NCBI RefSeq assembly: GCF_900090195.1
Contig: NZ_LT607803.1
Coordinates: forward strand, 1,674,001-1,738,000
From: Variovorax sp. HW608
GTDB taxonomy: Bacteria > Pseudomonadota > Gammaproteobacteria > Burkholderiales > Burkholderiaceae_C
Direction: 5' to 3'
DNA: 64,000 nt
Each line of letters begins with the position of its first letter. Positions within the stretch are counted from its first letter, which is position 1. Position numbers and translations under genes: made by a program. Of the stretch, positions 32,266-47,750 are shown one piece after another. Below the pieces are notes generated by a model, which was not told the DNA's origin, did not search any database, and saw only the letters and a program-made list of their open reading frames with translations.

Positions 32266-33279
32266 TCAGGCCGACTGGCGAATGATCAGGTTGGGCTCGG
32301 CGACGTAAACCTGACGCTTCATGGCAGGCTCCTTGATGCGTGCCAGCAGAAGTTCGGCTGCATGCTCTCCGAGCTCGCCAGGATGGACATTGACGGTACT
32401 CAGGGGCGGATTCGACAACTCGGAAGCCAGAACGTTGTCGAATCCGATCAAGGCGAAATCCGAGCCCGCTCGCAGGCCGTGCTCGCCGAGTGCGGCCAGG
32501 GCCCCGAACGCGACGACATCGTTGTAGCAGATGGCGGCCTTCACGTCGGGCTCCTTCGCAAGCAGGGCCTGCATCGTCTCGTAGCCGCCGGGGCGCGTCG
32601 GGTTGGCAGCGATCAGCAAATCGGGATCGACCTTGATCTTCCTGGCGGCCAACGCGCGCTTGTACCCCTTGAGACGCTGCTCGAGCACGACCCCCGTCTT
32701 CCCCCCCAGAAATCCAATGCGCCGATGGCCGGCCTCGAGCAGGTAGGTCGTCGCATCGAACACGCCCTGCTCGTTGTCGGCGCCAGCAAAGTCGTAGTTG
32801 CCGGGGCCCAGCGTGCGAACCATCACCACCAGCGGAACGCCCCAGCGTTGCACCTCCTGCGGGAGCGTGCCGGGTGTCCCGTAGGCCGGGCAAAGCACCA
32901 ACCCGGCGGCCCCTTGCTCACGCATCGCCTGAAGCACCTGCTCCTGGCGTTTGGGGTCCTCGTTCGTGTGTGCCATGAGGACGACGTAGCCGGCGTCGAC
33001 CAGCCTGCGTTCGATGCCGACGAGGATCTCCGCGAAGAAGGGGTTCATCAGGTCGTTGATGACGACGGCGATCGTGTTGGAACGTCCTGCGCGTAGCTGG
33101 CTCGCGCGTCGATTCACCACATAGCCCAGTCGGGTGGCGGCTTCGCGCACGCGTTCGGCCGTCTCCGAGGGAATCAACGGGCTGTCCTTCAGCACGAGCG
33201 ACACCGTGGATTTCGAGACATTCGCGGCCGCGGCGACGTCCAGGATCGTCACGGGGCGAGGGGATTTGGATGGGCTCAT
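32266..33279 (-). CDS. LacI-family repressor of the sugar/acyl-CoA cluster, 337 aa
   Basis: An N-terminal LacI helix-turn-helix ([35 protein letters not shown], about 9-43) and hinge helix ([11 protein letters not shown]) are followed by a periplasmic-binding-like effector domain (about 62-335). It is divergent from the catabolic cluster, with a perfect palindromic operator in the 110-bp gap, so it should repress the cluster until an inducing sugar derivative binds. It converges with adk 7 bp away. Confidence 0.88.
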
Positions 33280-33329
33280 GGGACCTTAAGTGTTTTCCCT
33301 CAGTTTACGAATTCGACCTTGTCTTTTGT

Positions 33330-33343
33330 TTGGAACGTTCCAA
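33330..33343. promoter_or_regulatory. LacI-type operator
   Basis: TTGGAACGTTCCAA is a perfect 14-bp palindrome with the central CG typical of LacI-family sites. It lies between the repressor and the cluster, 46 bp before the first gene. A partial second copy, CAACCGTTCCAA, follows at 33353-33364. Confidence 0.7.
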
Positions 33344-33389
33344 TAATTCATTCAACCGTTCCAATGAATGTAACCCGCAAGGAGACAAC

Positions 33390-44860: not shown

Positions 44861-44862
44861 GC

Positions 44863-46527
44863 ATGGACAACTATGACTACATCATCACCGGGGGCGGGTC
44901 GGCAGGCTGCGTGCTCGCGAATCGACTGAGCGCCGATCCGCAGGTCAAGGTCCTGCTGCTCGAGGCCGGCGGTTCCGACTGGCATCCTTTCTTTCATATG
45001 CCGGCCGGCTTCGCAAAGATGACGAAGGGCATCGGCTCCTGGGGATGGCAAACCGTTCCGCAGAAGCACCTGAAGGACCGCGTCCTGCGCTTCACCCAGG
45101 CCAAGGTGATCGGGGGCGGGTCGTCGATCAACGCTCAGCTCTACACGCGCGGCGTGCCCGCCGACTACGATGAATGGGTGACCGAGGAGGGTGCGGAGGG
45201 CTGGTCTTACCGCGAGGTGTTGCCGTACTTCAAGCGTTCCGAGAACAACGCGCGCTTTGCGAACGAATTCCACGCCTATGGCGGGCCGCTCGGCGTATCG
45301 AACCCGATCAGCCCGCTGCCCATTTGCGAGGCCTTCTTCCGGGCCGGGCAGGAACTGGGCATTCCATTCAATGCCGACTTCAACGGCGCGAGCCAGGAGG
45401 GCCTCGGCTACTACCAGCTGACGCAACTGGACGCGAGGCGCTCTTCCGCCTCGATCGGATTCCTCGACAAGGAGGTACGCAGTCGCCCGAACCTCACGGT
45501 GATGCTGCAGAGCCAGGCACTCAGGGTCGTCGTGGAGGGAGATCGTGCCGTTGGCGTGGAGATCGTCAGCCGCGACAATGCGTCGCCCCGCATCGTGAGG
45601 GCGGAGCGAGAGGTCATCGTCTCGTCCGGGGCGATCGGGTCGCCCAAGCTGCTGATGCAGTCGGGCATCGGCCCCGCAGATCACCTGGGTTCTGTGGGCG
45701 TGCGTGTGGTGCACGACTTGCGTGGCGTCGGAAGCAATCTGCAAGACCACCTGGATCTGTTCGTGATCGCGGAATGCACCGGCGACCACACCTATGACAA
45801 GTACAACAAGCCGCATTACGCGGCCATGGCTGGCCTTCAATACCTGCTGTTGAAGACGGGTCCGGTCGCCTCGAGCCTCTTCGAGACCGGTGGATTCTGG
45901 TACGCGGACCCTGGCGGGCATGCCCGCTCGCCGGATATCCAGTTTCATCTCGGACTCGGCTCCGGCATCGAAGCAGGCATGGCCAAGCTGAGGAACGCCG
46001 GCGTGACGCTGAACACGGCCTACCTCCGGCCCCGCTCCCGCGGCACCGTGAGGCTGGCGAGCAAGGACCCGGGTGCGGCGCCTCTGCTCGACCCGAACTA
46101 CTGGTCGGATCCCTACGATCGGAAGATGGCGATCAAGGGCTTGCGGCTCGTGCGCGAGATCCTGTCGCAACCCGCCATGAAGCGCTACGTCCAGGCGGAG
46201 GTCTTGCCGGGCAGTCGGCTCAAGACCGACGATGAACTCTTCGACTATGCGTGCGCCAATGCGAAGACGGACCACCACCCCGTGGGCACCTGCAGGATGG
46301 GTCCGGCCGACAGCCCCGACAGCGTCGTGACGCCCGACCTTCGCGTCATCGGCTTGCGGGGCCTGCGGGTGGTGGACGCTTCAGTCATGCCGCGCGTTCC
46401 CTCCTGCAACACGAACGCTCCGACCATCATGGTCGCGGAGAAGGCGGCTGACCACATCCTGGGCCGCCTCGGCAACGCGGCCGCGAAAGCAAGGCGCACG
46501 CTTTCGCTCGCAGAGCGAATTGATTGA
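44863..46527 (+). CDS. GMC-family oxidoreductase, choline-dehydrogenase-like, 554 aa
   Basis: A full GMC flavoprotein: DYIITGGGSAGCVLANRLS, LRFTQAKVIGGGSSINAQLYTRG, VIVSSGAIGSPKLLMQSGIGP, and the C-terminal TDHHPVGTCRMG...GLRVVDASVMPRVPSCNTNAPTIMVAEKAAD (in parts), with the catalytic His/Asn pair. BetA/alcohol-dehydrogenase branch. It starts 2 bp after the SDR stop. This second alcohol oxidase/dehydrogenase in the cluster suggests that two hydroxyls of the substrate are oxidised. Confidence 0.87.
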   Translation: MDNYDYIITGGGSAGCVLANRLSADPQVKVLLLEAGGSDWHPFFHMPAGFAKMTKGIGSWGWQTVPQKHLKDRVLRFTQAKVIGGGSSINAQLYTRGVPADYDEWVTEEGAEGWSYREVLPYFKRSENNARFANEFHAYGGPLGVSNPISPLPICEAFFRAGQELGIPFNADFNGASQEGLGYYQLTQLDARRSSASIGFLDKEVRSRPNLTVMLQSQALRVVVEGDRAVGVEIVSRDNASPRIVRAEREVIVSSGAIGSPKLLMQSGIGPADHLGSVGVRVVHDLRGVGSNLQDHLDLFVIAECTGDHTYDKYNKPHYAAMAGLQYLLLKTGPVASSLFETGGFWYADPGGHARSPDIQFHLGLGSGIEAGMAKLRNAGVTLNTAYLRPRSRGTVRLASKDPGAAPLLDPNYWSDPYDRKMAIKGLRLVREILSQPAMKRYVQAEVLPGSRLKTDDELFDYACANAKTDHHPVGTCRMGPADSPDSVVTPDLRVIGLRGLRVVDASVMPRVPSCNTNAPTIMVAEKAADHILGRLGNAAAKARRTLSLAERID

Positions 46528-46586
46528 GGCCGGACCCGGGCCCACCGTTCATTGAACTCGCGCATGGGTTGCGCAAAGGAGCAGTC

Positions 46587-47750
46587 ATGGAAATTCGTCT
46601 ACCGCAGTCCGACGGCAGCCTCAAGCGCTACGCCGTCCAGGCCAGTCCCGTCCGTCCGCAGCAGCCGCTGCCGGCGTTCAACCGCACGGTCTATGCAGCC
46701 GCCCACGTGGTGATCGACCCCTTCGCCACGGTCGATCCGTGGGATGCGTCCCCGATCGTCGACTGGGACACCACGCTGGCCTTTCGCGAGCACCTGTACA
46801 AGCTGGGCTTCAAGGTCGCCGAGGCGATGGACACCGCCCAGCGCGGCATGGGTGTGGACTGGCCGGTGGCCCGGGAACTGATCCAGCGGAGCCTGCGGCA
46901 CGCACGATCGGTCGGCGGCGACCTGGCGTGCGGCGCCGGCACGGACCAGCTGATCGCGGGCCCCGAGGTGACGCTGGCCGACGTCGAGGCGGCCTACCGC
47001 GAGCAGCTCGGCGTGGTCGAGGCCGAGGGCGGCCGCGTCATCCTCATGGCGAGTCGTGCGCTGGCCCGTTGCGCGCGCGGCGCGGACGACTACCTGTCGC
47101 TCTACGGACGCCTGCTTCGTGATGTCTCCAGGCCCGTGATCCTGCACTGGCTGGGCGAGATGTTCGACCCGGCCCTCCAGGGCTACTGGGGATCGAACGA
47201 TCTGGCCACGGCACTGGACACGGTGGCGCACCTGATCGGCGACAACGCCTCGAAGGTGGAGGGCATCAAGGTCTCGCTGCTCGACGCGAAGTGGGAGCTG
47301 GCGCTTCGTCGCCGCTTGCCCGCGGGCGTCAAGATGTACACCGGCGACGACTTCAACTATGCCGAGCTCATCGCGGGGGACGACAGCGGCCACTCGCATG
47401 GCCTGCTCGGGATCTTCGACCCCATCGCCCCGGTTGCCGCGGCCGCGCTGGCCGAGCTTGCCGCCGGTAACGCGCAGCGCTTCCGCAGCCTGCTGGACCC
47501 GACCGTGGCGCTGTCGCGGGAGATCTTCCGGGCGCCGACGCGCCACTACAAGGCCGGTGTGGTGTTCATTGCCTGGCTCAACGGGCAGCAGGACCACTTC
47601 TCGATGGCGGCCGGGCTGCAGTCGGCGCGCGGCGCCGCGCACTTCGCCAAGGTCTTCGAGCTGGCCGACCAATGCGGCGTCCTCTGCGACCCCGAGCTGG
47701 CCGTCCTGCGCATGAAACGCTACCTGTCCATCTCCTGCGGCATCGATTGA
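46587..47750 (+). CDS. DUF993 / dihydrodipicolinate-synthase-like protein, 387 aa
   Basis: A TIM-barrel protein of the DUF993 family: FNRTVYAAAHVVIDPFATVDPW, WDTTLAFREHLYKLGFKVAEAMDTAQRGMGVDW, ILHWLGEMFDPALQGYWGS and KVEGIKVSLLD-KWELALRRRLP, with a Lys in the strand position used for Schiff bases in DapA-type aldolases. No activity is established. The start is fixed by AAAGGAG before ATG 46587. It is the last gene of the cluster and a plausible retro-aldolase for the oxidised substrate. Confidence 0.83.
   Translation: MEIRLPQSDGSLKRYAVQASPVRPQQPLPAFNRTVYAAAHVVIDPFATVDPWDASPIVDWDTTLAFREHLYKLGFKVAEAMDTAQRGMGVDWPVARELIQRSLRHARSVGGDLACGAGTDQLIAGPEVTLADVEAAYREQLGVVEAEGGRVILMASRALARCARGADDYLSLYGRLLRDVSRPVILHWLGEMFDPALQGYWGSNDLATALDTVAHLIGDNASKVEGIKVSLLDAKWELALRRRLPAGVKMYTGDDFNYAELIAGDDSGHSHGLLGIFDPIAPVAAAALAELAAGNAQRFRSLLDPTVALSREIFRAPTRHYKAGVVFIAWLNGQQDHFSMAAGLQSARGAAHFAKVFELADQCGVLCDPELAVLRMKRYLSISCGID

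Follow-up and report, generated by a model that had tools for sequence, protein, structure and literature searches.

A LacI-controlled Variovorax gene cluster that probably serves the aerobic catabolism of 1,5-anhydro sugars

Gene content of the cluster

The single-contig, 7.73-Mb genome of Variovorax sp. HW608 contains, within the 64-kb stretch analysed here (the window), a set of genes that starts with an orthologue of 1,5-anhydro-D-fructose reductase (AFR) and also encodes a sugar importer, several oxidoreductases, two coenzyme A (CoA) enzymes and a protein of the family DUF993 (Table 1). Twelve of the genes lie on the plus strand, between positions 33390 and 47750, and are separated by 110 bp from a divergent gene for a LacI-family regulator. 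An earlier note on this DNA had described thirteen genes on one strand, many of them overlapping. The count of thirteen holds, with LacI on the opposite strand, and overlap is limited to three pairs (8, 8 and 4 bp), the remaining gaps in the plus-strand set being 2 to about 60 bp. The GC content of the gene set is 65.0%, compared with 66.5% for the window. Downstream, a response-regulator gene that runs towards the set has its end at 47760, and on the other flank LacI converges on adenylate kinase.

Pfam and NCBIfam scans bear out all the gene names in the earlier note, and the families they return agree with its picture of one catabolic set combining oxidoreductases with acyl-CoA enzymes; its first gene had been under-identified, and is the AFR orthologue. 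We propose, with a probability of about 0.65–0.7 judged from sequence comparisons, that the cluster is a single LacI-controlled operon for the aerobic catabolism of the 1,5-anhydro sugars 1,5-anhydrofructose (AF), 1,5-anhydroglucitol (AG) and 1,5-anhydromannitol (AM).

Table 1 Features of the gene cluster (positions in the window)
Feature	Position	Strand	Basis and remarks
LacI-family regulator	32266..33279	-	Pfam LacI and Peripla_BP_3; divergent from AFR across 110 bp that contain the likely operator
Operator TTGGAACGTTCCAA, palindrome, 14-bp pattern	33330..33343	.	Inside a promoter-like match, 33319-33347
AFR orthologue, Gfo/Idh/MocA fold	33390..34397	+	GTG start preceded by aggag; PDB 4koa, 2glx
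Class I CoA-transferase, YdiF type	34421..36016	+	Pfam/NCBIfam; Glu328 aligned with YdiF Glu333
Crotonase-family enoyl-CoA hydratase/dehydratase	36009..36788	+	Pfam, PDB comparison; Glu115, Glu135
Aldehyde dehydrogenase (ALDH)	36811..38319	+	Pfam, NCBIfam, alignment
Sugar-binding protein, glucose-binding-protein type	38344..39588	+	PDB comparison
ABC permease 1, GlcT/UgpA type	39648..40514	+	Pfam, NCBIfam; ATG read from upstream letters
ABC permease 2, GlcU/UgpE type	40507..41415	+	Pfam, NCBIfam
ABC ATPase, UgpC/MalK type	41446..42561	+	NF008653, 440 bits (cut-off 432)
GMC-1, ring-hydroxyl sugar dehydrogenase type; proposed 1,5-anhydroglucitol 2-dehydrogenase	42567..44090	+	PDB comparison; ATG read from upstream letters
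SDR (PRK12745)	44087..44860	+	NF009386, 352 bits (cut-off 250)
GMC-2, choline-dehydrogenase-like alcohol dehydrogenase	44863..46527	+	NCBIfam, Pfam, PDB comparison
DUF993, DHDPS-like	46587..47750	+	PF06187, 602 bits; K228 at the Schiff-base lysine position

AFR anchors the cluster

When eight of the operon proteins were compared with the PDB, the product of the first gene gave the strongest specific identification. It matches 4koa at 450 bits and 2glx at 447 bits, both named 1,5-anhydro-D-fructose reductase, with the next chain at 122 bits, and is 64–65% identical to these two over about 330 residues (residues 6–335). The stretches CEKPLA and DITVHDAD, which carry the EKP and DxxxH motifs of Gfo/Idh proteins, are identical between it and solved AFR.

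AFR is tightly linked to the CoA-transferase in rhizobia. We drew 247 genomes evenly across the family to which Rhizobium tubonense (G863) belongs. AFR is present in 63 of them at a cut-off of E ≤ 1e-100, and the CoA-transferase adjoins it in 63 of 63 (36 of 36 loci read at length and 27 of 27 others). The two genes are no more than 253 bp apart in 62 of these genomes; in the remaining one (L272) they are separated by 2,219 bp, with an intervening open reading frame of 693 residues. Scoring a gene as present when at least 35% of the query was covered at an identity threshold of at least 35–50%, set by gene, we found all thirteen genes in 28 of the 36 longer loci. The crotonase is present in all 36; ALDH, the binding protein, each permease, the ATPase and SDR in 35 each; GMC-1 and GMC-2 in 34 each; DUF993 in 33; and LacI in 31. 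Some of the absences coincide with the end of a stretch or contig.

The solved chains, which we take to be of Sinorhizobium origin, closely resemble AFRs inside such gene sets, with 89% identity between 2glx and the AFR of L251 and 91% between 4koa and the AFR of L262. Because of this identity the AFR enzyme described in 2006, in a paper cited by both PMC13259140 and PMC12441222, is by sequence a member of this operon. The earlier note had left the substrate as a sugar or glycoside. The orthology of AFR and its linkage in 63 of 63 rhizobial genomes narrow that vague label by pointing to 1,5-anhydro sugars.

A single operator and a predicted single transcript

The LacI operator foreseen in the earlier note is present. 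TTGGAACGTTCCAA gives one match at up to two mismatches in the window, against none in 100 shuffles, and the whole genome has no other site within one mismatch of the pattern (reversed-pattern control, 0). All 20 genomes surveyed, which were picked for carrying the cluster, contain operator sites. Within one mismatch these number 46 in all, and the reversed-pattern control gives a total of 8. By coordinates, 41 of the 46 lie inside the cluster, as do all 21 exact sites; the five elsewhere (two in G864 and one each in G863, G1017 and G867) all have one mismatch. The 36 longer rhizobial loci contain the operator exactly in 14 cases, at up to one mismatch in 33 and at up to two in 36 (reversed control at one mismatch, 0 of 36). 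The same operator stands before or near the orthologues in alpha-, beta- and gammaproteobacterial genomes, so that one LacI-type regulator with one operator accompanies the cluster versions examined. A strict 18-bp palindrome rule was abandoned in favour of the 14-bp pattern: the site in the window escaped it, and it found a match in 27 of 47 upstream stretches.

Extra operator copies occur in other species, near the ALDH/SDR border in gammaproteobacteria (L053, 7564; L054, 7566; L055, 7568), and inside or beyond the cluster in L251 (970, rhizobial, near GMC-2) and L185 (18026), which suggests further control points.

The twelve genes look like one operon, which would be read as a single transcript from behind this operator. 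Nothing suggests that the acyl-CoA genes are transcribed separately, which the earlier note had named as grounds for refuting its reading: terminator-like sites between 32200 and 48000 (four) are fewer than the shuffle mean of 8.8. AFR and ALDH flank the acyl-CoA genes both here and in the rhizobial loci; in the window, the spacing around them is an 8-bp overlap or a distance of 22–23 bp to the neighbouring genes. Promoter-like matches, of which there are 2, do not exceed chance expectation (mean 1.4).

Enzymes and importer

Residues that would be needed for catalysis are conserved. Glu328 of the CoA-transferase aligns with Glu333 of YdiF, presumably the catalytic residue, with conservation of at least 97% across 84 aligned rows; Glu115 and Glu135 of the crotonase, which we assume to be the two catalytic glutamates, reach the same level in 56 rows. 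The SDR set N118, S149, Y162 and K166 (numbering that counts one residue before the Met) is likewise conserved to at least 97%. The best PDB matches of GMC-1 are glucose dehydrogenase (6a2u), fructose dehydrogenase (7w2j) and pyranose oxidase (9fl2), all of which act on ring hydroxyls. An iron–sulfur cluster in the CxxCxxC..C stretch of GMC-1 was considered and discarded, these cysteines occurring in just 13 of 54 aligned sequences. The resemblance of the importer to glucose uptake, noticed earlier, is upheld by the binding protein, which matches 4r2b (571 bits) and the glucose-binding protein 2b3b (140 bits); a further three chains, matched at 373–394 bits, carry the name 'binding protein component of ABC sugar transporter'.

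DUF993 resembles dihydrodipicolinate synthase

DUF993 matches an uncharacterised protein in the PDB (4dnh), and its closest named relative is a Variovorax protein (81% identity). Alignment with hhalign to 8 of the genome's 11 dihydrodipicolinate synthase (DHDPS) paralogues gave a probability of 69% (E 4.4e-5), and five other families used as controls scored below 1%. K228, in the sequence GIK, falls on the Schiff-base lysine of DapA and shows conservation of 97% or more across 152 sequences, and some DUF993 relatives are annotated by NCBI as 'dihydrodipicolinate synthase family protein'. The suggestion in the earlier note that DUF993 could be an aldolase is consequently plausible, with an enzyme of the DHDPS/N-acetylneuraminate lyase type as the candidate.

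A second DUF993 subfamily is commoner. All 30 loci compared are 54–56% identical to the window's DUF993, and a DUF993 protein of some kind occurs in 72 of 121 relatives. Examples at 54–60% identity (L061, 4576-12024; L116, 4419-12338; L084, 4656-13408) have as neighbours a large enolase-like protein, a Gfo/Idh protein of about 385 residues and an AP-endonuclease-2/isomerase-like protein (identified by eye, except the Gfo protein of L061), with NMT1/SsuC-type or sugar ABC importers, also named by eye. As a clue to substrate this subfamily was set aside: its neighbours, judged by eye, fit 2-keto-3-deoxy acids and name no substrate. More distant sets (L032, 9444-18159; L052 and L086, both 1-12051) combine DUF993, GMC-2 and ALDH with a 36–38% identical CoA-transferase and an acyl-CoA dehydrogenase, with electron-transfer flavoprotein genes recognised by eye in Raoultella and Enterobacter; these perhaps handle another substrate by a similar acid-to-CoA logic.

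Cluster versions across bacteria

The gene set is, by these comparisons, common to soil bacteria of several classes. Betaproteobacteria share the window's arrangement, which is complete in L182, L183, L184 and, in two pieces, L033 and L187; L046, L047 and L049 follow it as far as the stretch reaches. L185 and L034 also have it, apart from GMC-1 in the former and ALDH in the latter. In most rhizobial loci DUF993 is divergent from a run of LacI, AFR, CoA-transferase, crotonase, ALDH, importer, GMC-1, SDR and GMC-2, and in a few it lies at the far end. AFR, GMC-1 and a YbiU-like gene adjoin the remaining set in Caballeronia (L051). The set is split into two units in Pseudomonas (L053/L237, L054/L238) and Acinetobacter (L055): AFR, GMC-1 and an MFS transporter (FucP-like by eye) beside an AraC regulator, and LacI, CoA-transferase, crotonase, ALDH, SDR, GMC-2 and DUF993 with MFS transporters. 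The Acinetobacter AFR is only 43% identical, and that locus adds glycerate kinase and phosphoenolpyruvate (PEP) carboxylase.

A minimal version in Variovorax G025 (L035), Polaromonas (L044) and Bosea (L082) comprises LacI, CoA-transferase, crotonase, SDR and DUF993, together with, in Bosea, an acyl-CoA dehydrogenase. Its operator is exact in Polaromonas and has one mismatch in the other two. No minimal version has AFR beside it; at E ≤ 1e-30 none was found in the G025 or Bosea genomes, and Polaromonas has a 48%-identical AFR on another contig. The importer of the minimal version is of the polar-amino-acid type (a family-3 binding protein by Pfam in L044, and its relatives in L035 and L082), as expected if the minimal pathway starts from an acid. 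This layering is what one expects of separable modules acting at the level of the sugar, of C6 oxidation and of the acid.

Around the window's own lineage the operon is, judged by its CoA-transferase, accessory: this gene occurs at 89% identity or more in 5 of 101 genomes of the genus sample, at 60% or more in 5 of 399 of the order sample (own genome included), and in 1 of 369 of the class sample, its own, at a stricter cut-off of 1e-150.

Proposed pathway

The proposal draws on what the sequences contain, namely the gene set, its operator, the orthology and linkage of AFR, conserved catalytic residues and the DHDPS likeness of DUF993; from these we infer every reaction, that of AFR in this species included. 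The importer would take up a glucose-like ring. GMC-1 would oxidise AG at C2 to AF, and AFR would reduce AF to AM, so that the two together epimerise C2. The route beyond AFR that we favour (C6 acid, CoA activation, ring opening by the crotonase and cleavage by DUF993) is tentative. In it GMC-2 and ALDH would convert the C6 hydroxyl to a carboxylate, and the CoA-transferase would turn this into a CoA thioester, acidifying the C5 hydrogen and making the C4 hydroxyl a β leaving group. Because the C5 hydrogen is axial and the C4 hydroxyl equatorial in the gluco and manno rings, their removal by the crotonase to give a cyclic enol ether would be a syn elimination, the known course for crotonases. 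The enol ether would hydrate and open to HOOC-CO-CH2-CHOH-CHOH-CH2OH, a 2-keto-3-deoxyhexonate.

By our own derivation in Fischer projection, a manno ring would lead to 2-keto-3-deoxy-D-gluconate and a gluco ring to 2-keto-3-deoxy-L-galactonate. The epimerisation at C2 would thus be explained, as the manno ring alone leads to the D-gluconate configuration. DUF993 alone would cleave the keto-deoxy acid to pyruvate and glyceraldehyde (C3 + C3); after oxidation at C4 by SDR it would yield pyruvate and glycerate. We favour oxidation before cleavage because of the glycerate kinase and PEP carboxylase in Acinetobacter and because SDR stays with DUF993 in the minimal version. Taken as a whole, this might be a new aerobic, non-phosphorylative pathway, a possibility we hold with considerable doubt, in which CoA-transferase and crotonase replace a sugar-acid dehydratase by opening a cyclic 1,5-anhydrohexuronate, in the form of its CoA thioester, to 2-keto-3-deoxygluconate, CoA is recycled, and DUF993 cleaves the carbon–carbon bond as an aldolase or, after SDR oxidation, as a 2,4-diketo-acid-cleaving enzyme.

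Evidence to the contrary and alternative readings

Several observations weigh against a 1,5-anhydro-sugar operon or against parts of this route. The natural substrate may be something other than AF, since AFR accepts further 2-keto-aldoses. Single genes are missing from some clusters: GMC-1 from L185 and L240, ALDH from L034 and L275, and a recognised binding protein from L049. The operator is absent from the stretches read in L050 and L051, the genome of L051 having one just beyond. In G860 (L186), one of the five carriers, the CoA-transferase (61% identity) sits close to the end of its contig, and no partners appear in the 19 kb read. DUF993 has His187 (H187-W188) where DHDPS has its catalytic tyrosine, part of the YN.P motif, and the hhalign probability is limited to the 69% given above. 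The SDR step, for which no role is forced, is the least certain part of the route.

It is unlikely that the natural substrate is instead another glucose-like sugar, an osone or an α-glucan-derived glycoside, with AFR acting on a related 2-keto sugar. The glucose-type binding protein would suit such a substrate. On the assumption that SMc04400 is AFR, the tags 04401, 04400 and 04396 run as expected from the gene order that the loci conserve (LacI, AFR, ..., binding protein). Passages of two papers bear on these genes: SMc04401 is listed among regulators (PMC4560400), and SMc04396 is stated, citing others, to be induced by dextrin, an α-glucan (PMC4960864), which we count for the 1,5-anhydro-sugar reading and which would equally suit a glucan-derived substrate. 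Against this, the solved orthologues are named for AF, and epimerisation at C2 with acid chemistry at C6 leads to 2-keto-3-deoxy-D-gluconate for an anhydro-manno ring, an argument from our own derivation rather than a result.

Still less probable is a different route for the same class of substrates, in which GMC-1 oxidises C3, β-elimination opens the ring and cleavage yields glycerate and 3-hydroxypropanal; ALDH, CoA-transferase and crotonase would then proceed through 3-hydroxypropionate and 3-hydroxypropionyl-CoA to acryloyl-CoA. The best PDB match of the crotonase is indeed 3-hydroxypropionyl-CoA dehydratase (5zai), and the Acinetobacter glycerate kinase would have a substrate. The minimal version, however, keeps CoA-transferase, crotonase, SDR and DUF993 with neither GMC-1 nor ALDH beside them, family scans recognised no acryloyl-CoA reductase among the 13 proteins, and SDR and DUF993 would be left without a role.

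The YbiU-like genes in the Pseudomonas and Caballeronia loci, whose products we assume might be oxygenases, would agree with an improbable third route, in which AF is reduced to AM, an oxygenase converts AM to mannose by hydroxylation at C1, and the CoA genes serve something else. This route, proposed for Sinorhizobium morelense (Kuhn 2006) and itself a point against ours, is stated in section 5.1 of PMC12441222, where the hydroxylase is called still unidentified. Against it, family scans found no oxygenase family among the 13 proteins, and the CoA-transferase is next to AFR in 63 of 63 sampled rhizobial genomes with AFR. A search of this genome for PF07350 (formerly DUF1479), the family of the YbiU-like proteins, gave 0 matches, an uninformative result because its control failed. 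Cleavage of a β-keto acid as in deoxyribonate catabolism was dismissed, no BKACE or thiolase family occurring among the 13 proteins and AFR indicating an anhydro ring, and the resemblance of the GMC, ALDH, CoA-transferase and crotonase combination to dimethylsulfoniopropionate/acrylate-like logic or to choline/carnitine catabolism was set aside once AFR had been identified.

Significance and neighbouring genes

AG serves as a marker of blood sugar in humans. According to passages of a 2025 review (PMC12441222), it is a polyol of human blood whose 6-phosphate causes neutropenia in two inherited diseases, and an oxidative route for it is undescribed. The operon is probably the missing oxygen-tolerant pathway for 1,5-anhydro sugars, with an unusual CoA step, and supplies candidate genes from soil bacteria for the steps of aerobic AG breakdown. 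If the proposal is true, it would give DUF993 a function and introduce a CoA-activated dehydration of a sugar acid.

Convergent with the operon lies an MctR/MctS-like two-component pair (47760-49765, minus strand; below NCBIfam cut-offs), beyond which is a gene for a branched-chain amino-acid-type binding protein (49886-51154, plus strand).

Comparison with known systems

The solved AFR proteins (2glx, 4koa) correspond to the first gene of the operon and differ in that AFR is known as a single enzyme. In one open-access literature library, outside which most subscription journals fall, we found no placement of AFR in an operon with CoA genes and no description of the operon or of a named pathway for its gene set, in line with the earlier note, which knew of none. 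The ring-opening step has a counterpart in the 4,5-unsaturated uronate/2-keto-3-deoxygluconate pathway of pectin and alginate degraders, where a keto-deoxy acid likewise arises through ring-opening elimination beside the C6 carboxylate; the enzyme in that case is a polysaccharide lyase, and CoA plays no part. Deoxyribonate oxidation in Klebsiella michiganensis, as passages of PMC6365646 describe it, likewise takes a sugar acid to CoA thioesters and involves a hydroxyacyl-CoA dehydrogenase, a CoA-transferase and glycerate kinase, but a CoA-synthetase and a thiolase are named there, and the terms 'GMC' and 'DUF' do not occur in the main text.

The anaerobic YbiW/PflD route of Escherichia coli shares the substrates AG and AM, and a YbiU-like gene with the Pseudomonas cluster. 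As passages of PMC12441222 describe it, YbiW cleaves AG-6-phosphate, and the route relies on phosphorylation by the phosphotransferase system and on an oxygen-sensitive glycyl radical enzyme, both unlike the present operon. The Variovorax genome has no PFL-like glycyl radical enzyme by a search that was positive in the E. coli control. The PF07350 proteins are 65% identical to E. coli YbiU in two Pseudomonas clusters and 46% in Caballeronia. In E. coli K-12 the order is ybiU, ybiV, ybiW, ybiY (L277, 857796-863511), which puts ybiU one gene from ybiW. Through this proximity the YbiU-like genes of the Pseudomonas and Caballeronia loci provide an independent link to AG, and YbiU may in turn be an aerobic helper for AG in E. 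coli.

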